A DNA stretch of 64,000 nt from an uncultured Prevotellaceae bacterium (lineage in GTDB: Bacteria; Bacteroidota; Bacteroidia; Bacteroidales; Muribaculaceae). The notes under the pieces were generated by a model, which saw nothing but the letters and a program-made list of their open reading frames with translations, ran no database searches and was not told the DNA's origin. Below are positions 206-31,599 of this stretch, piece after piece. The DNA lies in contig ONGE01000005.1 of NCBI GenBank assembly GCA_900317325.1, forward strand, positions 1 to 64,000, in the 5' to 3' direction. Position numbers and translations under genes: made by a program. Each line of letters begins with the position of its first letter. Position 1 is the stretch's first letter.

Positions 206-249
206 CAAAAATACTCTCCGGTTTAGTGGCTCGCAATACCCATTTGGGT
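206..249 (-). promoter_or_regulatory. Promoter with palindromic ACCC/GGGT site, BspA-like gene
   Basis: Read on the minus strand, a TATTTTTG box (213 to 206) fits the Bacteroidetes -7 consensus TAnnTTTG and lies 26 bases before the start at 180. Exactly 44 bases from the end of this box begins ACCCAAATGGGT (249 to 238), a palindrome with a two-base centre. The same layout recurs at 24079-24122, 28307-28350 and 30598-30641. The box is read directly; the operator role is inferred. Confidence 0.6.
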
Positions 250-302
250 GTTTTTTGCTCTGTATCGTGATGTGGCGGCCACAATGTGGTAACCGGTCAC
301 TG

Positions 303-310
303 CAAAGTTA
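303..310 (-). promoter_or_regulatory. -7 box TAACTTTG, distal promoter of the BspA-like gene
   Basis: Minus-strand TAACTTTG, a perfect TAnnTTTG match, 123 bases upstream of the start at 180. It lies 42 bases from the 65-bp repeated element at 352-416, so the BspA-like gene appears to have two tandem promoters with different control sites. Confidence 0.55.
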
Positions 311-351
311 CTGCAAATAACTGGATTTTTCGTGAAATTTGGCTTCATTGT

Positions 352-416
352 GACTTCATTTTGACAGTTATAAACCATTGATTATCAGATGCCCGAAAAA
401 TAAAAAGTTCATTTTG
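352..416 (-). promoter_or_regulatory. 65-bp repeated upstream element, copy 1
   Basis: Shared blocks are GACTTCATTT at one end, CCATTGATT in the middle and AAAAATAAAAAGTTCATT followed by TTG at the other. Copy 2 at 7556-7620 is exactly as long and matches at most positions; copies 3 and 4 (17268-17333, 14529-14594) are more diverged. Each lies upstream of a minus-strand TAACTTTG box, so it is probably an activator-binding region. This copy sits in the intergenic region shared with the divergent TPR-HTH gene at 558. Confidence 0.6.
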
Positions 417-462
417 ATATAATTCGGCCCGTTAAAGCTGAAATTGTTGCCCAAAAATGACG

Positions 463-470
463 TAAATTTG
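463..470 (+). promoter_or_regulatory. -7 box TAAATTTG for the TPR-HTH gene at 558
   Basis: Plus-strand TAAATTTG fits TAnnTTTG and lies 88 bases before the ATG at 558. A TTG triplet 13-16 bases upstream is the only -33 candidate and is not at the best spacing. The paralogue at 14700 also has TAAATTTG in its upstream region. Confidence 0.5.
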
Positions 471-557
471 CGAGAAGAAAACTACGAATTACGCTAATTG
501 AACTAATTTGGCATCCGCGTTCAATTGCTACGAATTGGACTCCATGTTAACTGGATT

Positions 558-2299
558 ATGAATACAAGAAATATCTCTTTTACCGCATTAATAGTTGTTC
601 TTGCTCTGGCATTGGCCTGTTGCAACGGGGGCGGTGATACGGCCACTATGCGTGAATTGGCTGCCATCGACTCGCTGTTGTCAAAGGCTCGCCAGTATGA
701 ACTAGCGCAGCACCGTTTGGATTCTCTCCATCCGGGCGGGTTCAACAAGGGCGAACGCGCCTACTATAGCTTGCTGCTCACCCAATCACATTACAAGAAC
801 TATATCGACGACACGACCGACGCCGTGATCAACGTGGCGGTGGACTACTATGAGCACCACGGCGACCGCGAGAAATACACCCGTTCCCTACTCTATCAGG
901 GCTGTGTCTATCAGATGATGGGCGATGCCGAAAAGGCGATAGCGTCCTATAAGGATGCCGAGAACGCGGCCGAAGCTGGTGACCTGGAGAATAAAGCCTT
1001 CGCCAAGCTGCGATTGGCGACCCTCTATGCCGACAATTCAAACTATGCCGACCTGAAAATCAGGAAATACAAGGAGGCCCTTGACCTGTACAACCAGCTG
1101 GGCGACAAGCACTACCAGATTGTGTGTCTGACCGACATGGGCGGCTATTACCGCAGCTTGCCCGATAAACGCGACAGCGCCCTCTATTACATCAATCAAG
1201 CCATCCAGCTGGCTGAGGCCGAGCACGAGAACTGGTTCCTGTTCCAGAACCTGTATCAACGCGCCGAGATGTACTGCCTGTTGACCAAGGAGTATGACAA
1301 GGCCCGGGTTGATATCCTGAAAGCCATAGCGGCCGGCAAGGATGAGATTGACCATCCCCGCGCACACTATGTCGCTGCCGAGACCTATCTGAACCTGGGG
1401 CGGCCCGATTCGGCCCTCTACTATCTGAATCATGTGCCCGCCAGCGGCATGATGAGCAACCACACCAGTGACACGGTCATGTATTGTCGGCTCATGAGTG
1501 AAATCGCCAAAGCCAACTGAGTGGGCCAACAAGATGGCCGACTCTATACTGGTGACCAACGTCAACAAGAACTACCTGGCCATTGAGAAGAAATATGACA
1601 TCCAGCTGGAGGAACTCAAGAAGGTGAAGAGCGAGTCCCGCACAAGGGGAGCCATCCTGCTGGCTGCGCTGCTGGCCCTCATGGCGCTGGGCGTGACCTT
1701 CCTGGCATGGCGCTACCGCAGCCGCCTGAAGCAGAAGGAGACCGAACCTCGATGCGTCGCTGGCAAGCCTGGAGCAGATGAGAACGACCATCAGCACCCG
1801 GGAACAGGAACTGAAGGCAGCGCAGGACGAGTTGCGAGGTAACGAGGCGCGCATGGGCGAGGAACTTGCGGCCCTGGAAGCCAAGCAACGCAAGAGTGAC
1901 GAGATGCGGTCCATCGTCGACAACCAGATACAGGTGATTCGCCAGCTGCTGGAGCTGTCCTATCAGCCCAACGAGGTGCCTTTTACCCGCAAGTTCAACG
2001 AAGTGATGACACTGCCCGTCGAGGGTGCCATCCCCACCGACTCCTATTGGAACAACCTGCACAGCCTGACCAATGAGCTGCACCATAACGTGCTCGATGA
2101 GGCACAACGCATCGCCGGAGGCACGCTCAACGAGAGCGAGATGAACTTCCTGGCCCTGTACTGCTACGGCTTCTCCCGCACGGTCATCATGATCTGCATG
2201 AAATACAGCAGCCTGGGCACCGTTTCCAACAAGAAAATCCAAATTGCCAAGAAGCTCGGCGTCAACAACCTCGACGACTTCGTCAACAACTACCGCTAA
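558..2299 (+). pseudogene. TPR-membrane-HTH regulator broken by two frameshifts
   Basis: The three reading frames together match the intact 568-residue paralogue at 14700-16406 end to end. Frame one (558-1520) holds a lipoprotein-like signal (LALACC) and the TPR repeats. It runs into a stop at 1518, where one extra T shifts the frame. Frame two carries EWANKMADS, the KNYLAIEKKYD helix, and the membrane segment (about 1650-1710) with the RYRSRLKQKE boundary. A second one-base shift near 1744 leads into frame three, which carries the coiled coil and the C-terminal LuxR-like HTH ending LDDFVNNYR. Both shifts go in the same direction, as expected for one extra base each. The start at 558 is the first ATG; the upstream TTG lacks a signal peptide. 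Either the gene is dead or the sequence has two indel errors. Confidence 0.75.
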
Positions 2300-2310
2300 C
2301 AAGAATCAAA

Positions 2311-2380
2311 AAGGAAGACAATAAGTACAATAAAAACAATAGCTTTCGCGCTGTTGAACTTGTTGTACTTATTGCCTCCC
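2311..2380. terminator. Bidirectional terminator between convergent genes
   Basis: CAATAAGTACAA (2319-2330) and TTGTACTTATTG (2363-2374) are perfect 12-base inverted arms between the plus-strand TPR gene ending at 2299 and the minus-strand barrel gene ending at 2400. There is no long T-run, so termination strength is uncertain. Confidence 0.5.
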
Positions 2381-2399
2381 CTTAGTGTGTCGTGGGGTA

Positions 2400-2903
2400 T
2401 CAGAAGCGGTAACCCACGCCTACGCAGAAGAGTACCCAGTCGGCATTCTTGAGGTACTCATACTTGATTTCGCCGTTGAGCATCAGGTGATCGCCGATGA
2501 GGTAGTCGATACCGCCACCCACATTGAAGCCAATCTTCATTTCGCTGTCACCATCGACCTTGATGTGGACATCACCCACGCTAGCATTGATGTCATCCAC
2601 TTTCCAGAAAGCGGCACGGATACCAGCAAGAGGATACAGACGGATCTTGTCGCCCAACTCAAACAGGTAGTGCTGCTCGGCGTTGAGGTCAAAGCAGGAC
2701 ACGCCGTTCTTCTTGAAGTAGTAATTGCCCGAAACGGCCGAGCGCCATGCGTGAGAATAGTTGCTCTGGAACTTCAAACCCACACCGGGCATGCTGCCCT
2801 CGGTGCCAAACACAAACTGACCGCCCAGGGACCACTCGCCCACGTCGGCACTTGCCATCATCGAAGTGACGGCCATCAGCATGATCAATAAAACCTTTTT
2901 CAT
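2400..2903 (-). CDS. Small outer-membrane beta-barrel protein
   Basis: 167 residues with a signal peptide (about 1-19, ending ASA) and alternating aromatic/polar strands. It ends in GVGYRF, with the terminal Phe typical of Bacteroidetes outer-membrane barrels recognised by the BAM machinery. At this length it would form a small eight-strand barrel of the OmpX/OmpW kind. It is a paralogue of the next upstream gene (2959-3444): both have DxGExxLGxQ after the signal, a YFKKN motif, and LGDKxRLxPLAG. It is the last gene of a minus-strand run from 7462. Ligand and role cannot be read from the sequence. Confidence 0.75.
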   Translation of the reverse strand: MKKVLLIMLMAVTSMMASADVGEWSLGGQFVFGTEGSMPGVGLKFQSNYSHAWRSAVSGNYYFKKNGVSCFDLNAEQHYLFELGDKIRLYPLAGIRAAFWKVDDINASVGDVHIKVDGDSEMKIGFNVGGGIDYLIGDHLMLNGEIKYEYLKNADWVLFCVGVGYRF

Positions 2904-2958
2904 TGTAACTGAGTTTTTTAGAGATTTATAAAAAAATTATAGCACAGAAATCGTCTAT

Positions 2959-3444
2959 TCAGAATCGCCAAGCTACCCCAATGCTGAAAAGCCCTTGGGT
3001 CTTGTCTCCATTATAGTGGCACTTTGACTTGACATCCAGCATCAGGTGTTCACCGATGAGGTATTCCGCTCCAAGGCCAGCGAAGGCGGTCATGTGCTCG
3101 TCGCTATCCGTCTCCCTGCCACCTAAGCCCTCAAAGGTGATGTGATCGGTTTGGAATCCTAATCCAGCCAACGGGAAGAGCCTCACCTTATCGCCCAAAT
3201 AAATGAGGTAGTTATGCTCCAGGGCAAAATCGGTGCTCCACACGTCATTTTTCTTGAAGTAAAAGTCGGCAAGCAGGTTGATGCGCCAGTGATAGAAGAA
3301 ATTATACTTCAGCGATACACCAGCCGCCATCGCTTTTTTATGGGTCCCATAGGTGGCCTGTGTTCCCAGGGCAAATTCGCCCATGTCAGCTCTTGCCACA
3401 AGCGCGCTCAAGAGCACGAGTAATATTATGACTGTCTTTTTCAT
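2959..3444 (-). CDS. Small outer-membrane beta-barrel protein (paralogue of 2400-2903)
   Basis: 161 residues: signal peptide ending VARA, then barrel strands, ending GVAWRF. Shares the YFKKND, LGDKVRLFPLAG and EYLIGEHLMLD segments with its downstream neighbour, so the pair arose by tandem duplication. The gap to the DUF3857 gene upstream is 24 bases and to the paralogue downstream 55 bases, which suggests one transcript. Structural role in the outer membrane is likely; no substrate can be inferred. Confidence 0.75.
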   Translation of the reverse strand: MKKTVIILLVLLSALVARADMGEFALGTQATYGTHKKAMAAGVSLKYNFFYHWRINLLADFYFKKNDVWSTDFALEHNYLIYLGDKVRLFPLAGLGFQTDHITFEGLGGRETDSDEHMTAFAGLGAEYLIGEHLMLDVKSKCHYNGDKTQGLFSIGVAWRF

Positions 3445-3468
3445 TATCTTATCATTATTTTTGTCGGT

Positions 3469-5643: not shown

Positions 5644-5686
5644 ATCGTTTTGCAATTGGTTGTATTATGGTCTCAACTATTCTCCA

Positions 5687-7462
5687 CTAGTCCTTGACAA
5701 GCACAATCTGCTCGTGGGCATGCTCGTTCCACTGCTTGAGCTGTGCATTCCATGCCATGATCTTGTCAAGGGGCACACGTGGATGGTGCAATGATATCAC
5801 CTTGCGGTAAATTATTGTGTTGACTTCCTGCCTGAAGGTGCATGACAGGTCTGCTACATCGGTATGGCGGTCATAGTCATCAGGCAGTTGTTCGCACCTG
5901 TAACCCGCGGGCAGGGTTAATGCCACTTCTCGCACCTGGCGACATGGGAAAGGCAGTACATAGTCGTTCTTGCGGTCGGTGGTGTCGATGGGGGCGGTCA
6001 TCAGCATGTTATCGGGATCCAGCTCGACAAACAGCTCATTCTCGACCTGCTCGACCGAGTGCCCGTCGGTCATGGTCGCTGCGACTACTGCCCACTCGCT
6101 GCGGCAGTCCTTATCTTGCCAGGCGGCACCTTCAATCTTGTTGGCGTGATCCTTATCGTTAAGGGCATTGTTCATGAACTGCATGCGGTCGGCAGCCTCA
6201 TTGTCGTCAAGCATGCTGAGCATCATCTCCTTCATGTCGCCCTTGAACCAGCGTGAGGCCTTTCCTGTCAGCTGGAACTCATGGTTCATTGTCAGGTCGA
6301 TGCGCACGCTGTCGCAGTTGGCACTGGCGGGTAGAACGGGCACGGTGCGCAACGAGGGGGCACCTCCCGGTTCCTCGACCATGACTTCCATGCCCTGCAC
6401 ATTGCTGGGGATATGGCCCAGCGGGATGTGGTTGCAGGTGGCGTCCAGGTAATAGGTTTTGCCCTGCCACTCCAGCGTACAGATGGCATGGTTGATGGCT
6501 GCAAGAGTGGGAATCTCGCTCATCTGGAGCGTTTTCAACAGCAGCGCCATGCCTTTACAGTCGCCGTAACGCTTGCGCACAACCTCGGCAGGCTTGTCTG
6601 GCTGATGTCCACTGATGCCTTCCTCAAAGGCGACATAGCGGATATTGTTTTGCACCCAGGCATAAGTGTTCTTGATCTTGTCCAGGTCGCTATGGCATTC
6701 ACGGTTAATATCAGCCAGGATATCGCTCAATGACGGAATGGCGGTATCGACGTCCGACAGCTGCCGTCCCCAGGCAAACATGTCGGCGGCATCCTTGAAC
6801 GACCCCACGACAAATACCGTGGGATAGACGCTGGCCACGGTTGGCATGGCTTCTTCCTGCTTGATGGGCGCCATGTCGTTGATTGTGTAGGTCACCACCC
6901 TACTTCCGCCCTTGTCTTTGTGCTCGATGGTAACTGCCGGGGACATGTTCTTGTCAACCAGCCGGTAATGCTCGAATTCCTTGGGCAGGATGAAAGTGAC
7001 CGTCTTTTGCTTGACAAAATATTGCTCGCCCAGCACGATGCGCGTGAAATAGTGCAGGTCGGTGAACGTGCGCTCATAGGTCATCCTGCGCTTTCGGCCC
7101 CATTTGCCCAGGGTCACATCGAAATAGCACACGCGGGAGTCGTCAAAGAACACATTCTCAGGCGTCGCCGACCGATAGTTAGCGCTGAAGCCGTCACAAC
7201 GTGCCTCATCTAGCTTGATGTTGTCCCCATAGAAGACCGCGGGCTGGATCTTCACGTCATACTGCCGCAAGGACTCATACTCAATGACGGTCTTGTTCTT
7301 GACAATAGGCTGGCCGCCTTTCATCTTGAACTCATACACCTCGCTGCATTTGCTCACCATCACCTCGTCGTCCCGCGACTGGGCGGCAACAGGAATGGAT
7401 GGCAAGACCATGGCACACACCAGCGACACCATGAGCAGGTGCCTGTAAAATGTCTGTATCAT
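5687..7462 (-). CDS. DUF3857/transglutaminase-core exported protein
   Basis: 591 residues: signal peptide ending AAQS, a DUF3857-like domain (about 45-250) and a transglutaminase-like core (about 255-370). The catalytic Cys is visible in KRYGDCKGMALLL, the His in AINHAICTLEW, and the Asp in TYYLDAT, so the cysteine-protease-like triad is intact. Such proteins are exported and may cleave or cross-link peptides; the true substrate is unknown. It is first in a minus-strand group with a catalytically dead paralogue and two barrels. A TAACTTTG box (7518-7525) stands 56 bases upstream, preceded by the 65-bp element, so this is probably the lead gene of a regulated operon. Confidence 0.8.
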   Translation of the reverse strand: MIQTFYRHLLMVSLVCAMVLPSIPVAAQSRDDEVMVSKCSEVYEFKMKGGQPIVKNKTVIEYESLRQYDVKIQPAVFYGDNIKLDEARCDGFSANYRSATPENVFFDDSRVCYFDVTLGKWGRKRRMTYERTFTDLHYFTRIVLGEQYFVKQKTVTFILPKEFEHYRLVDKNMSPAVTIEHKDKGGSRVVTYTINDMAPIKQEEAMPTVASVYPTVFVVGSFKDAADMFAWGRQLSDVDTAIPSLSDILADINRECHSDLDKIKNTYAWVQNNIRYVAFEEGISGHQPDKPAEVVRKRYGDCKGMALLLKTLQMSEIPTLAAINHAICTLEWQGKTYYLDATCNHIPLGHIPSNVQGMEVMVEEPGGAPSLRTVPVLPASANCDSVRIDLTMNHEFQLTGKASRWFKGDMKEMMLSMLDDNEAADRMQFMNNALNDKDHANKIEGAAWQDKDCRSEWAVVAATMTDGHSVEQVENELFVELDPDNMLMTAPIDTTDRKNDYVLPFPCRQVREVALTLPAGYRCEQLPDDYDRHTDVADLSCTFRQEVNTIIYRKVISLHHPRVPLDKIMAWNAQLKQWNEHAHEQIVLVKD

Positions 7463-7620: not shown

Positions 7621-7622
7621 TT

Positions 7623-7665
7623 TAAATTTAGGTTCATCCCCATACCCACAATACCCCAAACGCGT
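7623..7665 (-). promoter_or_regulatory. Weak copy of the ACCC...GGG/-7 promoter module
   Basis: On the minus strand, ACGCGTTTGGGG begins at 7665 and TAAATTTA (one mismatch to TAnnTTTG) ends at 7623, a span of 43 bases. The segment closely resembles the modules before the two ECF operons (24079-24122, 28307-28350). It directly abuts the 65-bp element, so it may be a second, distal promoter for the DUF3857 operon or a decayed copy. Confidence 0.35.
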
Positions 7666-20265: not shown

Positions 20266-22839
20266 TTAGTTGTCTTGGGTACGGCGCAAGGGTGCGTCGT
20301 TGCCGCTGCGCTTCTTGAACGGGTTGCTGATGGAGTTGAAGGTCCAACGCACCATCAGCGAGACGCCCCGTGTGTAGTTATAACTATAGGTCTCATTATG
20401 CGCATTCATGTAGCGTGTTTCACTCCAGGACGGCGTGCTACGGCGGAAGATGTCATTGGCGGTTACTCCCAGCAGCAGGCGGTTCTTGAACAAAGAGGCC
20501 ATGGCACTCAAGTTCACCCCAAGGATTGAGCTGTTTCTTGTGAATCCTCTGGTCCATGGTGTGCTGTAGAGCGCATTGCATCCTAGCAGGAACTTACGCG
20601 CCACGGTGAACTGGGCATTGAGCGAGAGAACGGCATAGGGCCTGTCCTCAATCCTCGTTCCATCCAGATAAGGATAGGTGATGTGGGGCAATGTCATACT
20701 CGACTGCACGCCCAGGTTAACCCATGAATTGCTGTAGTTGTAGCCCAAGTCCAGCGACCAGGCATGTGAATGCTTGATGTTGATGGGATGCTCACTGATG
20801 ATGCCCGATGGCATATACTCCACAATGCGTTGGATGGCATTGTCCATGAGCCGATAGCTCAGCGAGGAGGTGAAGCCCTTGTAGTTGGCATTCAGGGCCA
20901 ACCGATGGGTCACCGACGGCTGCAACAAGGGATTGCCTGTCGTTTCCTGATATGTGTTGATGTAATAGGACGTGGGGCGCAGTTCGTTGTAGGTGGGGCG
21001 CCTCAATATGCGGCCATAATAAAGCACCAAGTCAACATCATGCGACGGCTTGAACCCCACGCTGGCACTGGGCAGCACATTGTGATATGTCTTGTTGAGG
21101 ACAAAGCCCTTGCTGTCGGTGCGGGTGTGGTCATACTCATAGCGCAGTCCCGCATTCAGGCGCCACCTGCCCCAAGTCTTGGCCAGAGTGTAATAGACGC
21201 CAAGCCAGTCATTGTCACGCTTGCTGGTCTGCGTGAGGTCGTTCTGGTGAACGATCGCATTGCTTGCAGTATAACCCCATTCGAGGCCCGTGTGGTTTTT
21301 CCATCCGTCAGAGACAAAGTCATATTTGGCCGAAGCCGTCACGATATCATAATCATTGGTATCAACGATAAAATATTGTTTAATGATTGTAGAGGACTCG
21401 CCGCCGGGATTAAGAGTAGGTTTAATATACTCGTAGAGATTCTGGTCGTCTCGCTGTCGTGATGTCGCATAGTCGGCTATCAGCAGCAGTTGTGAGTGGT
21501 CATTGCGTTGCCACAGGTAACTGGCCGATGTGCTATTGCGCTTGATGATGTCTTCAGTAATAGTGAATCCGTGAAGGTATTGGGCGGTCTTCAGCCTTGA
21601 GAATTGGTCGAGATTCAATTTGCGGTAATTGCCATTGAACTGCAAGCCGAAGACGCTCCTGGGTGTGAAGGCATAATTCAAGCCGGCAAAGAACTGGAAA
21701 TCATCCCCGCTGCTTTGGTAGGATGTCGAGTCGGTTTTTGTATAACTCCACGGTTCTATACCATTTCCAGCGATTTCGGTCAACCCTTGAGTAAAAGCGA
21801 CCGTGTTTAAATGGCCATAGGAGAATGAGGCGTTGCCCGACAACTTATCGCGCTTGCCATCGATGGTGACGGTAGTGGTATTGGATTTCTTGTGTTTGAT
21901 GTCGAGCACATTCATCAGGCTGGCCCCCAGATTGTCTTTGTAAGGGCTATGGGTGTACAGCTTGACAACGGCGGCCACATTGGAGGCATATTGGGCATCA
22001 GGCTCGCGGATGATCTCCACTCGCTTGATATTTTGCGAGGTGACGGCTTTCAGCTCAGCGTTGTTGGTGACGCGGCGGTCATTGAGATAGACCTCGGTCT
22101 TGCCGTCGCGGCCGATGAGGGAGATGTCCTCGTTCATGCCTACGATAACACCGGGCGTCCAGCGCAGCAGATCGAGTGCGTTGCCGGCGTTGCCCATGAT
22201 GGTGCCGCCCAAGTTGCGCAGGGTGTAATTGGCGCCGTCGCGTTCAATCTGCATCTTGGCAGCGGTCACCACGGTTTCCTTGAGGGCCGTAATGTCGGGG
22301 TGCATCTTGATGGTGCCGACGTTGTCGCGGCTGCACAGGCGATAGGCCGTTTTGTAGCCCACATAGGAGACACGGGCGATGACCTTGCCGTACTCGATGG
22401 GAATGACGAAGCGGCCGCTCTCGTTGGTCACACCGCCGCCCACCATCGTCGAGTCGGCGGGGCTGAGCAGGGTGACATTGGCGTAGGGCATCGGCAAGTT
22501 GTGCTCATCCACGACCACGCCCTTGAGGCGGCGCTCGGTCTTGAGGATGGCTTCGACGTAGATTTCGCGGTTTTCCTTCCTGGTCATCTTGATGGGATAG
22601 AAACCAATCATCTGGCGGATGGCGTCGGGCACGGACTTGTTCTTGACCGTGGTCGTCACCTTGTAGTCCTCCAGGTCGTCATAGATGAAGACGATCTTGT
22701 AGCGGCTGGTGTGTTGCTGCAGGTACTTGAGGGCATCGCTCATCGACACGTCACTGAAGGTGTGCGTGATACTTTGTGCAACGGCCGTGAGCAGCAGGGC
22801 AAACGCCATGCACATGAGCAATGAGATTGTTCGCTTCAT
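20266..22839 (-). CDS. TonB-dependent transducer with STN and carboxypeptidase-like domains
   Basis: 857 residues: signal peptide, an STN domain (about 25-95; FSDVSMSDALKYLQQHTSRY, VPDAIRQMIGFYPI), and a carboxypeptidase-regulatory-like domain (about 105-180; RRLKGVVVDEHNLPMPYANV). A plug follows (about 185-300; DLLRWTPGVIVG, DRRVTNNAEL), then an OMP-b-brl type barrel. The STN domain is the part that contacts a FecR-like anti-sigma factor, and such a gene (22848-23516) lies 8 bases upstream with its ECF sigma. So this receptor should both import a ligand and signal its arrival. The C-terminus FKKRSGNDAPLRRTQDN extends past the usual aromatic end. Confidence 0.85.
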   Translation of the reverse strand: MKRTISLLMCMAFALLLTAVAQSITHTFSDVSMSDALKYLQQHTSRYKIVFIYDDLEDYKVTTTVKNKSVPDAIRQMIGFYPIKMTRKENREIYVEAILKTERRLKGVVVDEHNLPMPYANVTLLSPADSTMVGGGVTNESGRFVIPIEYGKVIARVSYVGYKTAYRLCSRDNVGTIKMHPDITALKETVVTAAKMQIERDGANYTLRNLGGTIMGNAGNALDLLRWTPGVIVGMNEDISLIGRDGKTEVYLNDRRVTNNAELKAVTSQNIKRVEIIREPDAQYASNVAAVVKLYTHSPYKDNLGASLMNVLDIKHKKSNTTTVTIDGKRDKLSGNASFSYGHLNTVAFTQGLTEIAGNGIEPWSYTKTDSTSYQSSGDDFQFFAGLNYAFTPRSVFGLQFNGNYRKLNLDQFSRLKTAQYLHGFTITEDIIKRNSTSASYLWQRNDHSQLLLIADYATSRQRDDQNLYEYIKPTLNPGGESSTIIKQYFIVDTNDYDIVTASAKYDFVSDGWKNHTGLEWGYTASNAIVHQNDLTQTSKRDNDWLGVYYTLAKTWGRWRLNAGLRYEYDHTRTDSKGFVLNKTYHNVLPSASVGFKPSHDVDLVLYYGRILRRPTYNELRPTSYYINTYQETTGNPLLQPSVTHRLALNANYKGFTSSLSYRLMDNAIQRIVEYMPSGIISEHPINIKHSHAWSLDLGYNYSNSWVNLGVQSSMTLPHITYPYLDGTRIEDRPYAVLSLNAQFTVARKFLLGCNALYSTPWTRGFTRNSSILGVNLSAMASLFKNRLLLGVTANDIFRRSTPSWSETRYMNAHNETYSYNYTRGVSLMVRWTFNSISNPFKKRSGNDAPLRRTQDN

Positions 22840-22847: not shown

Positions 22848-23516
22848 TTACTTCAGGTCTTTCGATTCCACAATCAGCTGGTTACCCTCGTGCCGGATGG
22901 AGATGGCCTCGAAGTTGTTGAGCATCTCGACCACCTTGTCCAGCGAGTATTCCGGTTCCCATTGATAGAACAGGCGCAGCGACCGCACTTCGTCCGAGCG
23001 GTACTCCACCTCCACGCCATAGTAGGCAGCGAGTTCGGCGAGCACCTGCTCCAGCGGAACTTCCTCAAACAGGCGGGGCTCGGCAGCCATCGACAAGGTG
23101 TCGGGCGTGGGTGCCAGCGCTTCATCGGTGACGGTATTCTCTGGGTTATTGCCTTGCTGGACGACCTTCTCGGGCTGGTTTTCGCTGTGCTTAAGGCCGA
23201 AAAAGCCTGTATGCACCGCTGCAATGGCGATACCCACACAAGCGATTACCACAACGGCTGCGGCGGCGATCTTGCGCCACAGGGGCACGATGACGGCCCG
23301 CTCGTGCTGCTCCCCAGCCAAGCGTTGCCACTGCGCGTCAATCATCTCGTCGCTCAGCCGCTCGGCGGCTTGCTCGCTGGCAAGGGCGCTGCGGGTCTTG
23401 GCCATCAACGAGTAGAGTTCGCGGCACTCATCGTCGGCAAGGATGTCCTGCCACTGCCGCTCGGTGTATTGCTCGGGATGCTCAAGCATCTTCAACAGTT
23501 GTTCGGTCTTGTTCAT
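22848..23516 (-). CDS. Short FecR-like anti-sigma factor
   Basis: 222 residues. A cytoplasmic N-terminal helical part (1-80) is followed by one membrane helix (about 84-106; IAAAAVVVIACVGIAIAAV), a Pro/Asn-rich linker, and a C-terminal DUF4974-like domain (about 150-220; PLEQVLAELAAYYGVEVEYRSDEV, LDKVVEMLNNFEAISI). The central FecR beta domain usual in this family is missing, so the linker joins the membrane helix directly to the STN-like part. Its ATG overlaps the sigma stop by 4 bases, so translation is coupled. It should hold the sigma factor inactive until the STN receptor reports ligand. Confidence 0.8.
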   Translation of the reverse strand: MNKTEQLLKMLEHPEQYTERQWQDILADDECRELYSLMAKTRSALASEQAAERLSDEMIDAQWQRLAGEQHERAVIVPLWRKIAAAAVVVIACVGIAIAAVHTGFFGLKHSENQPEKVVQQGNNPENTVTDEALAPTPDTLSMAAEPRLFEEVPLEQVLAELAAYYGVEVEYRSDEVRSLRLFYQWEPEYSLDKVVEMLNNFEAISIRHEGNQLIVESKDLK

Positions 23517-24013
23517 CGCTCTGGTGGTGTTAATGTTAAACGAAGTTGGTCGAGTGCGCTTCGCAGATGCTTGTAAACCGTGGTCTCGCTCACGTTCAAC
23601 CGTTCGGCAATCTCACGGAAGGTGAGCCCGTAACGGTAATGCAACACGATGACCTCGCGGCACACAGGCGGCTCCAGGTCGGCGACACCTTGATGGAGCG
23701 CGCTGATCTCGGCCTCGATGTCCTCGGCTTCACGGCTGGAAACCTCACTCTCCAGCAGCAGGAGCTGTCGGGCCCGTTCATCGATCTTGCGGTCACGCAT
23801 CACATTCAAGCACTGGTTGCGCACGCATGACAGCAGGAACACCTCGGCGGTCGCCTCCTGCAGCGGACGGCGGTCGGCAAGCAGCCTGGCAAAGACATCA
23901 TGCACGATGTCCATGCTCTCCTCATTGTCGTGCAAGAGGATGCTGGCCAGCCTGAACATGGCCCGGTAATGCTGCTTGAACAGCCGTTCGATTTGTCGTT
24001 TCCTGTCTGTCAT
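23513..24013 (-). CDS. ECF RNA polymerase sigma factor
   Basis: 166 residues. Region 2 is at the N-terminus (LFKQHYRAMFRLASILLHD, SMDIVHDVFARLLAD). Region 4 is at the C-terminus (VCREVIVLHYRYGLTFREIAERLNVSETTVYKHLRSALDQL). The start is the ATG at 24013; a longer frame adds five residues that do not fit. A promoter module (24079-24122) lies 66 bases upstream. Together with the anti-sigma and STN receptor it forms a cell-surface signalling triad, and probably drives its own seven-gene operon or distant surface genes. Confidence 0.9.
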   Translation of the reverse strand: MTDRKRQIERLFKQHYRAMFRLASILLHDNEESMDIVHDVFARLLADRRPLQEATAEVFLLSCVRNQCLNVMRDRKIDERARQLLLLESEVSSREAEDIEAEISALHQGVADLEPPVCREVIVLHYRYGLTFREIAERLNVSETTVYKHLRSALDQLRLTLTPPER

Positions 24014-24078
24014 ACACTCTATATACACACTCAGGTCGATTTACTAAACCCTTTTCCGCAACTTTTTTAATCACGCGA

Positions 24079-24122
24079 CAAAATTACCCATCAATCCCGA
24101 CACCCACAACCCCCAAACGGGT
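24079..24122 (-). promoter_or_regulatory. 44-bp promoter module of the ECF operon at 24013
   Basis: Minus strand: ACCCGTTTGGGG at 24122, then GTTGTGGGTGT, GGGATTGATGGG and TAATTTTG ending at 24079. It matches the module before the second ECF operon (28307-28350) at nearly every base and at identical length. Confidence 0.65.
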
Positions 24123-25065: not shown

Positions 25066-25136
25066 TATAGCATGTAAAACTCTTTAATGCAAGAAGTTTA
25101 TAACAGCTTCGTTTTACTTGAATTTGTCTCCCTAAG

Positions 25137-26353
25137 TCACACGTCCATCAGCCACTTCCACACTGGCACTACGGGTATTCCTTCTTCCGTGCTCTCCTCA
25201 TCGTAAGTAATGAGCATACACTTCCAATCTTGATGTCCTTTTGCATACTTCACCAGTGGTGACACCTCCCTGTTGTAAGTGGTCTCATCCTTGATGCTGT
25301 ACGACACTTGGATGGCCAGTTTCTCTTCGGGTATGATAAAGTCAATTTCCTTATCTGCATTCATATAATAAACATTCTCTTTACCATACCGTCTACAGAG
25401 TTCCACTGCTACCATATTCTCCAACAGCGATGATTCGGAATTCATCAGGAAGAGGTTAAGTAAGCCGTTGTCTATAAAGTAATATTTCTTCTGTGATTCC
25501 TTCTCTGTCAGTTTGCCTACCTCATTTTGCATGGGCAATATCAGCCAACTGTCAGCAGCATATCCAGCATAATCTATTGTCGTTGGCACACTGATAGGAG
25601 CCCCCGTTGCCACAATCACATTCTTCAACCGGTTGAACGACAGCGGTTGCTTCACACTCTCTGCCATCTTCTTGATCAATATGTTCATCACGCGGTCGTT
25701 CTTAATATTGTTTCGGGCACAGATGTCACCCAGATAGATTTTCTGATACAAGCTCGACAGCATGGCTCGCTTATTCTTAAACGACAGGATCTCCGGCAGA
25801 CCGCCGTAATAGAAGTACTCATTCAGATGTCGCTTCACCTCGCTCCGCTGTATCGTGTCATATTCCCAGTGTTCCTTCAGTTCCACCTGTTGCGCTGCCA
25901 GGTATTCTTTAAATGAATATGGGTACGCATCATAGATAAAGAATCTTCCGCCCAACGTAGTTGCCACCTCCTTGCTCAGCATCTTCGCATTGCTGCCCGT
26001 CACATATACCCTATATTTAGCATCAGCCAGTCTCCGCACAAACTTATCCCAATGTTCTTGCCATACAGTTCCAAATGAGCCTCCAGCAGACTGTTGAAGT
26101 CCTCTGTCTGAAATTCAGCCAGACGCTCATCCTCAAAGTCCACAAATAGAATCTCGTCCCATCCCTTTCCTGCAGCCTGCAGCTGGCGCACACGCTGATA
26201 TAGCAGGTACGACTTACCCGCATGTCTCACGCCAACTATCACATAGTTGCCATTCTCTTCAAAGTCTATGGGACGGTTCACAATCACCGCCTCATCCACC
26301 TCGCGTTGCTTACTAATTAGGCATTGTTTGATGACATCTTTACTGATACTCAT
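25137..26353 (-). pseudogene. AAA-type ATPase (DUF4143 family) broken by a deletion over the Walker B region
   Basis: Two frames cover one gene. The N-terminal frame (from 26353) has a Walker A motif GVRHAGKSYLL, then DEILFVDFEDERLAEF, and reads correctly to ELYGK. The C-terminal frame resumes with EHWDKFVRRLADAKYRVYVTGSNA and continues through the DUF4143 half (YVMNADKEIDF-like end region, ending WKWLMDV). Intact relatives normally have about a dozen residues including LFLDEIQ between these points. Here they are absent and the frame is shifted near 26045-26056. A deletion of roughly 35 bases that removed the catalytic Asp-Glu is the simplest reading. Intact relatives are common orphan ATPases of unknown role. 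Confidence 0.75.
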
Positions 26354-26401
26354 ATAAATTATATTTAATAAGAATTAGGTGAGATTATTAAGTTTGGCTT
26401 A

Positions 26402-26409
26402 CAAAGTTA
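26402..26409 (-). promoter_or_regulatory. -7 box TAACTTTG for the broken ATPase gene
   Basis: Perfect minus-strand match 49 bases upstream of the ATG at 26353. Confidence 0.55.
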
Positions 26410-26835
26410 GGAATTTTTTATAAAACAAAATTGATAAAACCCGAATTATTGCAAAAATTCCACACTTTTTTATCACAAACTATGATTTTTGCCCCAAAAT
26501 GACATCTCTCTGGAAAATTCTTGTCAAAACATAGTTACATCATTCCCTAATTAAATCGATTTGCATCGTTTTAATGCCCATTAAAATGATGCAAAATATA
26601 AAAAGGATTTGGTCAAGTTGTTGGATTAATTCAACACACACTCAATTGCATTATACGAGCCAGCCGAGGATATGACATCACCCTTGGCTGAACTCAGTAT
26701 AGAAGCTATTTCTGTGCGTTAGTTTTTACAGGCGGTTACGCTTTTCTTGGCTATCTTGTCCGTCTTTTTTGAAATCAGTTTGCTTATGTCGTGTAAATAA
26801 TTATCGACATCAAGGGGGGCTATTTTCTTGTTTTA
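26410..26835. other. AT-rich intergenic stretch with a possible small relic
   Basis: Mostly AT-rich and without a convincing gene. On the minus strand, just after the two stop codons (TAA TAA) of the frame at 26836-27231 and in the same frame, 34 more codons run KKIAPLDVDNYLHDISKL, then lysine-rich, then TACKN and a stop near 26727. This could be a small relic or chance. No RNA gene or promoter is evident. Confidence 0.4.
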
Positions 26836-27231
26836 TTACATTTCCCTGCCTCTTATTCTGCTCACCATTTCGCTGGTATTCATCATGGCAATGATGCAGA
26901 ACGCAATCATCAGCGAGGTTAGCAGCACACAAATCATGCGACTGTTCTGCTCGATGAATTGTAGCGGGTAGAAATTGATGCCGAAAGTGAACAGGGGTGT
27001 GTTGGATGGTATGGCAAGGATGAAGACAAGAAGTCCGCTGCCAAGGACAATACCTGCCACGAAGGCTGCAACCACAGCCATGCGGTAACGGCGTATTTGT
27101 TTCGTCTCTGCCTGTTGGATTTCATCAATCATGGCGAATTTCCTTTCCAACCGTTTGTTGAACAACTCGTTGTCCTTAAGTGCTGGGGTGAAACTGTCGA
27201 AAAGTTCCTGTATTCTTTTGTCGTCATTCAT
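26836..27231 (-). CDS. Small two-helix membrane protein, candidate anti-sigma factor
   Basis: 131 residues: a charged N-terminal third (LFDSFTPALKDNELFNKRLERKF), then two membrane helices (about 50-74 and 97-116). It overlaps the end of the ECF sigma gene by 8 bases and is AT-richer than its neighbours. A cytoplasmic helical part followed by membrane spans, placed directly behind an ECF sigma, is the layout of many anti-sigma factors, but no known anti-sigma domain is visible. That role is therefore inferred from position. Confidence 0.65.
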   Translation of the reverse strand: MNDDKRIQELFDSFTPALKDNELFNKRLERKFAMIDEIQQAETKQIRRYRMAVVAAFVAGIVLGSGLLVFILAIPSNTPLFTFGINFYPLQFIEQNSRMICVLLTSLMIAFCIIAMMNTSEMVSRIRGREM

Positions 27232-27706
27232 TTTTCAAAAGGGTTTTAAGTTTGTCTCTGCCTCGTGATAGCTGCTTCTTCACAGCATCTTCAGTCACAT
27301 TTACAATATCGGCTATTTCCCTGATTGAATAACCTTTAAGATAGAAGAGCAATATTGCGGTTCGTTCTTTTGGCGGCAATTGCTCCATAGCTATGTAGAG
27401 AGCTTGGTAACGAAATTCGCGGTCGGCTGCAAAAGAGGAATCCTCACGTTTTTCGAGCGCATCCAAGGGTTGCATGGTTCGGCGACAGCGGTTCGTGTCG
27501 ATAAACATATTGTAGGCGATACGGTAGAGCCATGCCGTGCCTTTTCCACATTCCTCATACTTAGAACAGGATAGGTAAGCCTTCACCAGTGCGTCCTGTG
27601 CGATGTCGTCTGCCTCATCCCGATTGCCACAGCAGAGTGCGAGCAGAAAGCGCCTAAGCGCTTCCTGTTCAGTCTTGATAATCTCTATGAATTGCTCGCG
27701 GGTCAC
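27224..27706 (-). CDS. ECF RNA polymerase sigma factor
   Basis: 160 residues. Region 2 reads ALRRFLLALCCGNRDEADDIAQDALVKAYLS and WLYRIAYNMFIDTNR; region 4 reads LPPKERTAILLFYLKGYSIREIADIV, then TEDAVKKQLSRGRDKLK. The start is a GTG overlapping the stop of the upstream membrane protein (GTGA), which implies coupled translation. The downstream membrane protein may be its anti-sigma. Unlike the system at 23.5 kb there is no FecR/STN partner, so the signal is probably not a TonB ligand. Confidence 0.85.
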   Translation of the reverse strand: MTREQFIEIIKTEQEALRRFLLALCCGNRDEADDIAQDALVKAYLSCSKYEECGKGTAWLYRIAYNMFIDTNRCRRTMQPLDALEKREDSSFAADREFRYQALYIAMEQLPPKERTAILLFYLKGYSIREIADIVNVTEDAVKKQLSRGRDKLKTLLKNE

Positions 27707-28140
27707 GCCTGGTTTCTGGCTTCAGCCTCAATCTCTTGCTTCAGTACCTTTCGCCCCACAAAGTAATTGATAAGGAAAGCAAGCCCAACACCTAACGACG
27801 GTACTGCTACGAAGGACAGTCCGATGAACATGTCAGCATCGACTTCATCAATGACTAAACCGAACATAGCCAGAGCCACATAGATTCCCGCACCAAAAAG
27901 GGTGAAGATACAACCGTACAATAGCTTGTCAAGCAGTCGCTCCTTGATACTGGGGCGAGGTTGGTTCATCTTCTTGAAGAATTCTTCCAAATCCACATCA
28001 GAGTTCTTCTCAATTGCGGCCAGCGCAATTTGGGCGCGTTTATTAGTGGCGTTTGTCTTTGCACGTGCTACAATTGCCACGATGATGATTGGAAGCACAA
28101 CAAAAATCCCTAAAAGGACTATCATTTCAGCAAATTTCAT
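27703..28140 (-). CDS. DUF6249-like small membrane protein
   Basis: 145 residues: an N-terminal membrane helix (about 5-24), a cytoplasmic KRAQIALAAIEKNSDVDLEEFF segment, and two C-terminal helices (about 72-92 and 103-126). The helix-linker-two-helix layout with AIEKN resembles DUF6249 proteins that often sit beside ECF sigma genes in Bacteroidetes. It is first in a three-gene operon whose 44-bp promoter module is at 28307-28350. Function unknown; the family name is given with moderate confidence. Confidence 0.65.
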   Translation of the reverse strand: MKFAEMIVLLGIFVVLPIIIVAIVARAKTNATNKRAQIALAAIEKNSDVDLEEFFKKMNQPRPSIKERLLDKLLYGCIFTLFGAGIYVALAMFGLVIDEVDADMFIGLSFVAVPSLGVGLAFLINYFVGRKVLKQEIEAEARNQA

Positions 28141-28306
28141 TTTCTCTACCTTTATGTGTTATACAATGATTTTTATTATTCTCGTTTGAGCTCGCTCATA
28201 TATATAACGAATTAGTAAGTCGAAAAGTGACGTGGAAAGAATATTTTAGAGACAGGTGCCCAAATGGAGATTTTTCTCGTTATTTTTCGATATCAGTTTG
28301 GCGAGA

Positions 28307-28350
28307 CAAAATTACCCATCAATCCCCACACCCACAATCCCCAAATAGGT
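28307..28350 (-). promoter_or_regulatory. 44-bp promoter module of the second ECF operon
   Basis: Minus strand: ACCTATTTGGGG at 28350, then ATTGTGGGTGT, GGGATTGATGGG and TAATTTTG ending at 28307. The start at 28140 is 166 bases away, giving a long 5' leader in the otherwise empty 28141-28306 interval. Confidence 0.65.
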
Positions 28351-28464
28351 AAATAGTCAGCCGAGGGCGACATTTCGTACCCTCGGCTGGCCACGGTATC
28401 GAAAAAGCTGTTTCTATATATTCCGTTTACAGGCGATTGCTCTCGTCTTGGCCGGCATGGCTGT

Positions 28465-30560
28465 TCAAAGCAGTCCTCTATCTTTGTTCTTCTCGTCGTC
28501 AAATTTTGATTGGTTCTTGACTTTGAAGCGCTTGTTGTTGTTCAGACGGAATCCCACCCTGAGCAGTATGAGGTTGTCATAGGTCTTCAGGTTCAAGCGT
28601 TGATGCTCTTTATAGAAGTCAGTATCAATGGCGCGTTGCTGATACTCCCGCACACCTAACCGGATGGGAGGCAAATAGGTGAGCGAGACATTGATCCTGT
28701 CGTGCCAGAAGGTCTTGAACAATGAGACCGCCCACATGTCCTGCTCCTGCTGCTCATATCCTTGAAGCAAAGGCACCTGGCGCAACGAGCGTGAATAATC
28801 CACCTCAAGCCTCATCTTGAGCGGGTTGATATAATAGGACAAGTTGCTGCTGAATTCAGGTTGTTAGCATGGTTTTTATAAGTGTCCCAACTGATGTTCA
28901 TATGAGAGTACTGCAATGAGTTGCTCCATGTGATGTTTTTATTAATGCTCCAGTTGTGCATGATCACGAACGCGAGTGCGGAGTGTCTAGAGTTCACGAA
29001 TGACTGCTGATACAGTTCATCCACATGACTATAAAAGTCGCTGATAGCATGCTTGGAGGACTGATAAACACCCGCCAAGATGAGATTCTGCCATAGCACC
29101 GCCTGCAGATTCACTTCGTGTTTCAAACTGGGTTTCAGCCCAGGATTCCCCTGAAAGGCCATCCTCTCGTCCAGGTTGTAACCGATGGGCGATAACTGAT
29201 ATAGTTTGGGATATTCCATCCTTGTGGAGTAGTCCGCGCTGACCTGCACATTCTGTGAAGGGACAAAATTCAGCGATGCCGCAGGTAGCAGTTGATTGTA
29301 AGTATTGGAAGTAACCTTATCACTGATATGGATAGACTCGAAGGCCAGTCCAACACGTCCACTCAACTTGTCGTTCAACGTGTAATCGAGATAGGAGAAC
29401 ACATTGTGCCTGTTCTCATCTGATTTTGTAACAGGAATATTGCGTTGGCCGAATCTGTAGAGAGCCCAAGTGGCCGAATATCCAAAATCCACAGAAAGCT
29501 TGTCATTCGGGCTGAACACGGCATCAACGGTTCCCTTGTAATAATTCTTCTTGTGGGTGGAATAGACATCATTGAGTAAGGTTTCATGCATCGAATAGGT
29601 ATTGCGATTGTCTGTCTTGAATAGGTTGTAGTTCAAGTCAGCATATAGCTTCCACTTTTGGCAGATGGTCCAGTTATAGATAACAGAAAACTTGAAGTCA
29701 TTGCTTTTCACGTCATTGCCTATCAGTTCGCTAAATTTGGTTGTCACATTGTCCGTGGAAGTGCCCGTGTAGTCATATTGAGTAGAATGACGCCTGTTGT
29801 CATGTATAAAAGAGCCCCGCAGTGACAGCGTCTGGTTGTCGGCAACTTTCCAGTCCAGACCGAGGTTTGCCGCATGTGCATTGCTCTTATTGTGGTCATT
29901 GGGATTGTCTGTAGTGTATTCCTTGCTGGACAAATCGGACAGACCTAGATAGACCTTACTGTAGGAAATCGGGTAGTTCCACCTGATATGGCCATAGACA
30001 TAGCCAACGTTAAAGTTCCATTTCTTGTCGGTATGCGAGTACTGGATGTTGGGTTGCTCATTGACAATGTGGTCATCGCCATTGTTGCCAGGCGATACAA
30101 TCGTGAAGTTGTTAATGGACAAGCCGTTTCCCACATAATCATTTTTGAGTTTGATGTCAATGACATATTTATAGCCGGCAATAACGTATCTGCCAGGCAA
30201 TTCATGGATGATTTCTATCTCCTTGACCCTTTTAGGATCGATTGACCTGACATAATCAAAGTTTCGTTCCTGCCCGTCAACTATCACAAGCACCCGTTCG
30301 TCGTTCTTAACGCTGACTTTTGATTTCAATTGGTCGAACTTCACACCAGGTAGCAAGTTCATTATATCGAATACATTGGTAACGCCCTTGCGATGATTCT
30401 CGGTGATTTTAAACACATCGCTTTTAGGCTTGTGCTTGATCAGGCTCTCGGTAAACACCAGTTCAGGGAGCGTGACCTCCATGATGGAGTCCTGCCCGTT
30501 TTGACCCATGATGTCAAAGAACAGGCTTACGAGCATAAAGAATGTCCATAATCTTCTCAT
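28465..30560 (-). pseudogene. TonB-dependent receptor with a one-base frameshift
   Basis: The first frame (from 30560) reads a signal peptide and a plug (SDVFKITENHRKGVTNVFDIMN, LLPGVKFDQLKSKVSVKNDERV), then most of an OMP-b-brl barrel, up to HANNLNS. One base is missing near 28848-28856, and the next frame continues naturally as SNLSYYINPLKMRLEVDYS to the C-terminus at 28465. The plug starts right after the signal peptide, without a carboxypeptidase-like domain. Either a recent inactivation, a phase-variable site, or a sequencing error; the run CAGCAGC at the site is a short repeat. A promoter module (30598-30641) lies 38 bases upstream. Confidence 0.75.
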
Positions 30561-30597
30561 AATAAATGATTAATTAAAAATGAGTTTTTGTTGAAGC

Positions 30598-30641
30598 TAA
30601 ATCAATCGGTTTTGTAAGGGCGTACGATGCCCTAGATGGGT
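30598..30641 (-). promoter_or_regulatory. 44-bp promoter module of the frameshifted receptor
   Basis: Minus strand: ACCCATCTAGGG at 30641; the -7 position, 44 bases on, reads TTGATTTA, a weak match. Spacing is the same as at 206-249, 24079-24122 and 28307-28350. Confidence 0.4.
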
Positions 30642-30700
30642 ATTTCTTTCCCACTTGGGAGAGAAGGTGCCCATTTTATAAGAGGCTTAAAATTAAGGTA

Positions 30701-30904
30701 TTACTCGTTGCGATACTCGAGGATGTCGCCAGGGGTGCAGTCCAAGGCACGGCAGATGGCGTCGAGCGTCGAGAAACGCACGGCCTTGGCTTTGCCGGTC
30801 TTGAGGATCGAGAGGTTGGCAATCGTGATTCCAACGCGTTCGCTCAGTTCATTGAGCGACATCTTGCGGCGCGCCATCATCACATCAAGATTCACGATAA
30901 TCAT
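30701..30904 (-). CDS. Small XRE-family HTH regulator (YozG-like)
   Basis: 67 residues, almost entirely one XRE helix-turn-helix: VMMARRKMSLNELSERVGITIANLSILKTGKAKAVRFSTLDAICRALDC, ending PGDILEYRNE. Stand-alone regulators of this type are commonly paired with a DUF2975 membrane protein, as here, with 13 bases between the genes. It probably controls its own operon; a perfect inverted repeat is found in that promoter (31448-31466). Confidence 0.85.
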   Translation of the reverse strand: MIIVNLDVMMARRKMSLNELSERVGITIANLSILKTGKAKAVRFSTLDAICRALDCTPGDILEYRNE

Positions 30905-30917
30905 AGCGCAAATGGGG

Positions 30918-31400
30918 TTAAATGGTTAACTTCTGTTCCTCGGCGGCGTCATAGGCCAACTTGTAAAGTATGGCTACAAGTACTGCCACTATCGCATAGA
31001 CAAATGGGGTGTCGGTCAGGCCCCATTCATAGTGATCCGTGGCCGAGCAGGCATAACCCATGTTATCACTGATGAACGAATGAATGGGTAGCACAATGGC
31101 CATGATCCACAATAGCACCACATTGGCACGGTTGAATATCGTTCCCCCTTTCAGGTATTTGAGGATGTTGAACACAAACGCAGCCATCAGCCCCGCCATC
31201 AAAAGGATAAAGAGACGGTTAACGATGAACAGGGCTAATTTGGAACCTATGTTCGGAGAGCCCCAGTTGATGACACCCTTGCCGCTGCCTGTTGTCAGGA
31301 CAAAATAGGACTGGACGGCATAAAACGCCACCCACAAGACGATGCCGATAAGCGCTAACACGCACACGGTTTTCAACACTCTGTTAGATGTCTTCTTCAT
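30918..31400 (-). CDS. DUF2975 family membrane protein
   Basis: 160 residues from the ATG at 31400. Four hydrophobic helices are visible (about 10-30, 57-80, 90-110, 130-150), with the loop LKGGTIFNRANVVLLWIMA typical of DUF2975. The family has no proven function; members are paired with a small XRE regulator, as here. Its promoter TATCTTTG (31434-31441) lies 33 bases upstream. Confidence 0.8.
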   Translation of the reverse strand: MKKTSNRVLKTVCVLALIGIVLWVAFYAVQSYFVLTTGSGKGVINWGSPNIGSKLALFIVNRLFILLMAGLMAAFVFNILKYLKGGTIFNRANVVLLWIMAIVLPIHSFISDNMGYACSATDHYEWGLTDTPFVYAIVAVLVAILYKLAYDAAEEQKLTI

Positions 31401-31433
31401 AATGTACAACTCTTTTAATGTTCATTTCCGCCA

Positions 31434-31466
31434 CAAAGATACATCAATTTATCGAGAAACGATAAA
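31434..31466 (-). promoter_or_regulatory. Promoter and inverted-repeat operator of the DUF2975/XRE operon
   Basis: Minus-strand -7 box TATCTTTG (31441 to 31434). TTTATCG, a 5-base centre, and CGATAAA form a perfect 7-base inverted repeat at 31448-31466, between the -33 and -7 regions. A protein bound there would block RNA polymerase, so autorepression by the XRE protein is likely. Confidence 0.6.
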
Positions 31467-31552
31467 TATATCATAAAAATTAAGAAAATTTAATCATTTA
31501 ACAATTAAATTTTATCGCTGCAAAAATAAAGGGGATTTCTTAAGCCAGCAAC

Positions 31553-31599
31553 ACCCAAATGGGTGTTTTTGGATTTATGCAGGATAATGTGTACTTTTG
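31553..31599 (+). promoter_or_regulatory. Promoter of the LuxR-type gene with ACCCAAATGGGT palindrome
   Basis: ACCCAAATGGGT (31553-31564), a TTTG at 31568-31571 at -33 spacing (20 bases), and the -7 box TACTTTTG (31592-31599). The box places the transcript start near 31606, which rules out the ATG at 31597 and supports the one at 31621. The palindrome is the same as at the BspA-like promoter (238-249). Confidence 0.6.

Follow-up and report, generated by a model that had tools for sequence, protein, structure and literature searches.

What binds a promoter element shared by several different genes, and why the element keeps an exact distance from the promoter, are the questions raised by a stretch of DNA from an uncultured Prevotellaceae bacterium (contig ONGE01000005.1 of GenBank assembly GCA_900317325.1, positions 1 to 64,000), referred to here as the window. 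It opens a contig of 133 kb in a 3.47-Mb Bacteroidales genome of 44 contigs (G000; genomes and loci carry G and L numbers, respectively). The element consists of a palindrome, ACCC-N4-GGGT, followed by the -33 and -7 boxes of a promoter, 44 bases in total. The candidate binder is the product of a LuxR-type gene at 31621 (LuxR-A), which has a roughly 40%-identical paralog in the same genus (LuxR-B). The palindrome is probably the operator of LuxR-A at -33/-7 promoters, through which genes for surface proteins, extracytoplasmic function (ECF) sigma factors, and a small RNA would undergo class II activation and LuxR-A would control itself. To our knowledge, few pairs of transcription factor and operator that control surface proteins of Bacteroidales have been worked out.

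The promoter module in the window

An earlier note on this DNA, made from the letters alone, had placed the site in six promoters. The lengths that it gave were all correct (44, 44, 44, 44, 43, and 47 bases at 206, 24079, 28307, 30598, 7623, and 31553, respectively), with five stretches on the minus strand and 31553-31599 on the plus strand. Four of the six were intact: at 206, 24079, 28307, and 31553, ACC[CT]-N4-GGG is followed by TTG at -33, 20 bases, and TAnnTTTG. The form of the Bacteroidota housekeeping promoter (TTG-N20-TAnnTTTG) was found at these four positions and at 31521, was imperfect at 7623, and was absent at 30598, the last two sites being degenerate. The stretch at 30598-30641 contains ACCC-N4-GGG, lacks both TTG at -33 and TAnnTTTG at -7, and ends in TTGATTTA. 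The stretch at 7623-7665, over which DNA similarity was also seen, reads ACGC...GGGG and then TAAATTTA, and its boxes are 18 bases apart. Fuller forms stand in relatives before what are apparently the same genes (L127:868 and L111:8860): a receptor-like gene in L127, akin to 28812-30560, has the promoter ACCCTATTGGGTATTG ... TATTTTTG, and a gene similar to 5687-7462 in G019 has a promoter with the full consensus (L111:8860). A promoter identical to 206-249 precedes a 733-amino-acid (aa) LRR_5 protein in L138, and promoters similar to 31521-31564 were found in G032 and G101.

The two ECF promoters had been described as nearly identical, and 40 of their 44 positions agree; in the 50 bases before and after them, only 16/50 and 14/50 agree. 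Both ECF operons are present as proposed, except that the second starts with 27703-28140 and has its ECF gene (27224-27706) in second place. The claim of true palindromes required a similar correction, as the symmetry of ACCCAAATGGGT is limited to the half-sites, and the reverse complement reads ACCCATTTGGGT. The palindrome at 31553-31564 does precede the promoter of the LuxR gene itself, in a 47-base variant. A second promoter, of exactly 44 bases and missing from the earlier note, uses this palindrome on the opposite strand (31521-31564) and points toward gene 30918-31400, with the Cro/C1-type regulator gene 30701-30904 behind it; the two promoters overlap at the palindrome, so that one palindrome serves two divergent promoters.

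The pattern ACC[CT]N4GGG-N22..30-TAnnTTT[GA] occurred 5 times in the window, compared to a mean of 0.03 and a maximum of 1 in 60 first-order simulated sequences. The stricter pattern ACCYNNNTGGG-N23..27-TANNTTTG had 4 matches in the 3.47-Mb genome, all inside the window within a span of 31 kb, and its reversed form had none in the whole genome.

Abundance and spacing of the motif in the genus

The shared site was confirmed far outside the window, in genomes of the genus. The search for the spaced motif that the earlier note had proposed was run on 61 genomes (G000, 36 others of the genus, and 24 of other families) and returned 51 matches, 49 of them in the genus; the reversed pattern returned 9, with 2 in the genus, and certain of these 51 matches appear to be due to chance. 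When the gap was opened to N10..40 in 61 genus genomes, 80 matches were found (23 for the reversed pattern), with a single sharp peak in length: 42 of the 80 measured exactly 44 and 8 measured 45. A fuller pattern produced 89 matches in 33 of 70 genus genomes, each at least 85% complete, and no match in the same 70 genomes when reversed.

The full form of the module is ACCC-N4-GGGT-RTTG-N20-TAnnTTTG, in which the site abuts the -33 box. RTTG occupied positions 13 to 16, after GGGT, in 34 of 38 distinct sites, and for 37 it was not required by the search. The central four bases of the distinct sites were mostly ATTT. The spacer (positions 17 to 36) was low in information, and the 38 sites represented 25 spacer groups.

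ECF promoters kept their -33/-7 spacers (16 to 20 of 20 bases identical), although the ECF proteins can be only 49 to 61% identical (24079-24122 and 28307-28350 in the window; L111:1374, L112:7041, L134:261, L135:1271, and L146:1694); spacers varied at the other sites. A second element, perhaps the promoter of the sigma factor itself, may overlap the spacer of the ECF promoters.

Among 61 sites that were read (fetched regions and the window), 53 were followed by an open frame that began no more than 450 bases away, and BLASTP grouped the 53 frames into 20 clusters. The largest clusters contained BspA-like proteins (13) and ECF sigma factors (10); domains were confirmed on two of the BspA-like proteins (LRR_5) and on the ECF copies in the window. 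TonB-type receptors, lipoprotein-like frames, small outer-membrane barrels, a serpin, a CotH-like protein, and a ThiF protein were also found downstream. Chance may account for certain single sites, such as that of L130, and three of the frames, which follow small-RNA sites, are probably spurious. Contig C40 of G097 contained six exact sites in 33 kb, together with a LuxR gene and two ECF-like operons.

Genes for ThiF proteins adjoin LuxR homologs in L022 (6762-7520) and L024 (949-1716). Within the genus, a ThiF gene lies behind a 44-base site (L142:1287-2045), and the same promoter occurs at G101:C25:23798-23841. The gene behind the site of L024 had a match to a 4Fe-4S domain.

Association of the motif with LuxR-A

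The gene at 31621 had been put forward as a possible binder that regulates itself, and comparative evidence supported its candidacy. A close ortholog of LuxR-A (75% identity or more) was found in 14 of the 70 genus genomes, four of them with fragments, and all 14 carried the motif (57 sites), compared to 19 of the 56 genomes without a close LuxR-A (32 sites; Fisher test, P = 4e-6, not corrected for relatedness). The motif tends to travel with LuxR-A, which is probably the switch for which the motif is the landing site. Upstream DNA could be read in 13 genomes with a close ortholog, and in 10 of these the palindrome lay 68 to 70 bases before LuxR-A; the promoters facing LuxR-A in relatives within the genus had spacings of 47 to 49. 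Upstream of LuxR-B, the palindrome was found in 0 of 20 rows.

The association extended beyond the genus. In a search by protein of 392 genomes of the order (E 1e-45), the LuxR family was found in 17 of the 391 genomes other than G000. Of the 23 distant loci found by protein alone, 7 contained palindromes, 16 in all, where 0.33 were expected (about 49-fold; maximum of 3 in 200 simulations). Ten distant loci from an earlier search for relatives contained 9 palindromes in 6 loci against 0.67 expected (maximum of 4), and 18 LuxR-B loci contained none against 0.72 expected. LuxR-B was rejected as the binder on account of these 18 loci and of motifs that occur without it. In 17 distant loci, RTTG stood at the palindrome in 11 orientations, and all 11 had [TG]AnnTT[TC]G at exactly 44, a -7-like box that was widened to this form after the data had been seen; 8 of the 11 were in loci fetched independently of the motif. 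Taken together, these comparisons of sequence show an evolutionary link between LuxR-A and a site that keeps its exact spacing while spread over different genes.

Palindromes near distant LuxR homologs were often paired, 37 to 38 bases apart, in several lineages (L245:1402/1440, L247:2324/2362 and 3092/3130, L023:5910/5948, L025:2209/2247, and L261:2237/2274). In L023 and L025, the spacing was 33. A 45% homolog of LuxR occurs in Parabacteroides distasonis NM39_I3, whose 12.7-kb locus contained no palindrome.

A search by motif only in the 391 other genomes of the order had three positives (G155, G396, and G308). In G155, 87 bases separate the match from a LuxR homolog (50% identical) that runs divergently, and the match faces a receptor-like frame (CarboxypepD_reg) that starts about 500 bases on. 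G396 has its LuxR homolog elsewhere and a similar receptor-like frame about 95 bases behind the site. The G308 match falls inside a coding frame, and a search of G308 found no LuxR homolog. The family was present in 2 of 3 motif-bearing genomes versus 15 of 388 other genomes of the order (Fisher test, P = 0.005). Motif counts were also examined in twelve genomes reached through LuxR loci. The single match in G119 and one of the two matches in each of G117, G116, and G114 lay within about 1.2 kb of a LuxR homolog; the only match in G113 and in G115 (33 bases) precedes LuxR itself; G112 had one match, with 50-base spacing; and G111, G118, and G120 had none. The conserved receptor gene that neighbors LuxR in the genus and its candidate counterpart in L027 were not called orthologs, as their proteins had only a weak stretch in common (89 residues, 29%, E 9e-8, one comparison) and the L027 candidate had no match in a Pfam search.

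The LuxR-A protein and its family

The GerE domain of LuxR-A was recognized at residues 200 to 255 of a 262-aa open frame (PF00196, E 9.5e-13) and was the sole Pfam match (E 0.01), with no match to the autoinducer-binding N-terminal domain of LuxR proteins that respond to acyl-homoserine lactones. A NarL-type receiver domain was likewise absent, all 19 NCBIfam matches lying within residues 183 to 254. Residues 10 to 252 of the 254-aa protein are related to structure 3CLO ("Transcriptional regulator"; E 2.8e-8), as are positions 97 to 251 of a profile of the LuxR family (E 6.7e-16). 3CLO, presumably from Bacteroides thetaiotaomicron, is a relative in sequence, although a distant one, and we know of no function, operator, or regulon for it.

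The residues YRK in the recognition helix were found in 12 of 16 palindrome-bearing homologs versus 2 of 22 others, a pattern seen afterwards among related rows, with two further rows lacking letters dropped from the tally. One of the 2 YRK rows without a palindrome was LuxR-A of G009, whose genome bears the motif.

Proposed mechanism and alternatives

In the proposed mechanism, a dimer of the C-terminal GerE domain of LuxR-A would bind the palindrome, directly next to the -33 box of a housekeeping-type promoter (TTG at -33, TAnnTTTG at -7). The bound dimer would make good a weak -33 box, most likely through class II activation, in which it recruits RNA polymerase. The targets would be surface or secreted proteins, such as BspA-like repeat proteins, lipoproteins, and TonB-type receptors, together with ECF sigma operons and, in certain species, a small RNA; the ECF operons would pass the signal on, and LuxR-A would also bind before its own gene and control itself. 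We infer that LuxR-A dimerizes, binds, and activates rather than represses, that the site has the class II position relative to the transcription start, and that the N-terminal part senses a signal. From the center of the palindrome to that of TTG is a fixed distance of 8.5 bases, which, with TTG taken as -33, predicts a center of the palindrome at -41.5. Class II activators touch polymerase near -41.5, as established for other phyla. Since the spacing of 47 to 49 before LuxR-A differs, LuxR-A may repress its own gene or act on it more weakly.

Several findings weigh against LuxR-A as the binder. The 19 motif-bearing genomes without a close LuxR-A include 7 that also lack LuxR-B (G006, G012, G018, G019, G025, G036, and G083; 85 to 96% complete), one of which, G036, has a 35-residue fragment (63% identical). 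No site was found before 3 of the 13 readable LuxR-A genes (G088, G121, and G009), the palindrome was absent from 16 of the 23 and 4 of the 10 distant loci, and the relatedness of the genomes makes the co-occurrence tests overstate independence. Some absences of LuxR-A may be assembly losses, as the gene was cut by contig ends in 4 of the 14 genomes with a close ortholog. In G015 and G063, LuxR-like promoters with 49- and 48-base spacing (L133:1978-2026 and L158:858-905) precede a different small frame and neither is followed by a LuxR gene, which looks like loss of a LuxR gene. The motif-bearing genomes without a close LuxR-A, those also lacking LuxR-B included, would suit a true regulator site with a different binder, such as the HTH_26 protein at 30701-30904, another GerE protein, or a response regulator, with LuxR-A as one member of the regulon; proteins with a GerE-like stretch occur in many genus genomes. 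We consider another binder unlikely, given the enrichment of palindromes around LuxR homologs in other lineages, and one present in every genome would leave the lack of the motif in 37 of 70 unexplained.

That LuxR-A binds and represses, through contact at the -33 box, is somewhat less improbable, as the site touches TTG at -33 and the deviating spacings before LuxR-A (47 to 49) and in L023 and L025 (33) are compatible with autorepression. A single exact distance combined with free spacers would nevertheless fit contact between activator and polymerase better than blocking, which should tolerate many positions. Common descent alone, by which promoters were duplicated or transferred along with paralogous genes, could account for the agreement at 40 of 44 positions between the two ECF promoters of the window and for the common spacers of ECF promoters in different species. 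It is very improbable as the whole explanation and was rejected for the non-ECF sites, because 38 distinct sites fell into 25 spacer groups and 53 frames (a few probably spurious) into 20 BLASTP clusters while the box positions stayed constant. Activation by LuxR-A, if true, would help to explain when Bacteroidales of the gut and rumen change their BspA-like proteins, receptors, and ECF pathways, and would illustrate a possible placement of an activator on the -33/-7 promoters of Bacteroidota. Sequence alone would then have yielded a regulator, an operator of exact geometry, and a set of targets. A wider reading is held only tentatively: that LuxR-A and its operator form a pair across several Bacteroidales lineages that jointly controls surface proteins, receptors, and ECF operons, partly clustered as a gene island, along with a new small-RNA family, so that a signal-sensing LuxR solo would re-dress the cell surface via transcription, a sigma cascade, and RNA.

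Relation to known systems

Class II activation by LuxR-type proteins is of a known kind, and Vibrio LuxR at the lux box is a class II activator of this family. LuxR-A shares with such activators a GerE-type domain, a palindromic site beside the promoter, and a position near -42, as judged by geometry. It differs from Vibrio LuxR in having no autoinducer-binding or receiver match, a 12-bp site (ACCC-N4-GGGT), and -33/-7 rather than -35/-10 boxes. Searches of open-licence papers listed none that was recognized as describing the motif, regulator, operator, targets, or small RNA. Excerpts of PMC7366714 give sigma-ABfr promoters of Bacteroides as TAnnTTTG at -7 with TTTG near -33. The -33 and -7 boxes of the 44-base module agree with it, and ACCC-N4-GGGT is an added upstream element; the second motif of PMC7366714 lies at -10 and -30. 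Work on CdhR of Porphyromonas gingivalis is cited under "LuxR" in an excerpt of PMC12040651; CdhR, a possible parallel to LuxR-A, is reported as negative for Mfa1.

Genes behind the sites in the window

The sites and genes of the window are listed in Table 1.

Table 1. Sites of the 44-base module and associated genes in the window
Feature	Position	Strand	Remark
Site ACCCAAATGGGT + ATTG + N20 + TATTTTTG, 44 bases, before BspA-like gene	206..249	-	
Degenerate site ACGCGTTTGGGG ... TAAATTTA, 43 bases, before gene 5687-7462	7623..7665	-	
Site ACCCGTTTGGGG + GTTG + N20 + TAATTTTG, before first ECF operon	24079..24122	-	
Site ACCTATTTGGGG + ATTG + N20 + TAATTTTG, before second ECF operon	28307..28350	-	
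Degenerate site ACCCATCTAGGG, without recognizable -33 or -7 boxes, before receptor gene	30598..30641	-	
Site ACCCATTTGGGT + GTTG + N20 + TATTTTTG, exact 44-base promoter pointing left	31521..31564	-	
Same palindrome as 31521..31564, before LuxR gene, 47-base spacing	31553..31599	+	
BspA-like leucine-rich-repeat gene, start only, cut by contig end	1..180	-	Clusters with BspA-like proteins
591-aa protein, weak transglutaminase-like match	5687..7462	-	21.6 bits, below Pfam cutoff of 23
Outer-membrane TonB-type receptor	20266..22839	-	OMP_b-brl_3, plug
FecR-type anti-sigma factor	22848..23516	-	PF16344
ECF sigma factor, first ECF operon	23513..24028	-	
ECF sigma factor, second gene of second operon	27224..27706	-	
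DUF6249-like small protein, opens second ECF operon	27703..28140	-	29 bits, below Pfam cutoff of 33
Outer-membrane receptor, 582 aa	28812..30560	-	
Cro/C1-type (HTH_26) regulator, 67 aa	30701..30904	-	
160-aa hydrophobic protein	30918..31400	-	
LuxR/GerE-type regulator, 254 aa, proposed binder (LuxR-A)	31621..32385	+	PF00196; family alignment

The LRR_5 domain was demonstrated on the relatives of the BspA-like protein in L138 and L148. A 611-aa counterpart of 5687-7462 in L111 had a transglutaminase-like score of 31.6. The receptor at 28812-30560 looks broken because its apparent C-terminal part lies in another frame (28465-28842); a longer unbroken frame for the receptor of 28465-30560, of 698 aa, was found in G097:C40. 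The 160-aa protein at 30918-31400 had no match in a Pfam search.

Small-RNA candidate

In seven genomes (G002, G009, G012, G018, G073, G079, and G096), the site is followed by about 75 conserved bases that end in a hairpin and a T run, and this small-RNA candidate, whose transcription we infer, carries a conserved TATTCATACTAT stretch. The copy beside the site in G073 was a weak match (34 bits). At E 0.01, a model built from six copies identified members, weak ones among them, in 38 of the 70 genus genomes; copies include G000:C20:32550-32624 (L194:1501-1575), L131:1319-1393, and L119:5427-5503. The ACCC site stood in front of 7 of 30 small-RNA loci inspected, the other copies mostly having another promoter, as did the best copy in G000 (C20:32550-32624). 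The model found no copy in the window, where no known RNA family reached its gathering score, and an Rfam search of ten small-RNA loci returned only microRNA matches far below gathering scores. In 36 sequences, 97.4% of hairpin cells were paired and only 3 cells changed on both sides; 13 to 253 of 500 shuffles reached the observed measures. With so few double changes and shuffles that match, covariation lends the hairpin weak support.

Assembly and habitat of LuxR-A relatives

The contig-cut LuxR-A loci were L083 (same contig as L014), L084 (L016), L173 (L018), L087 (L021), L122 (L030), and L031; these cuts look as if near-identical copies in co-occurring species had broken the assemblies. Of 27 relatives of LuxR-A, 13 came from genomes with RUG names, which we take to denote rumen genomes, and 3 from genomes named for ruminant organs; the motif-bearing bacteria are probably rumen dwellers.

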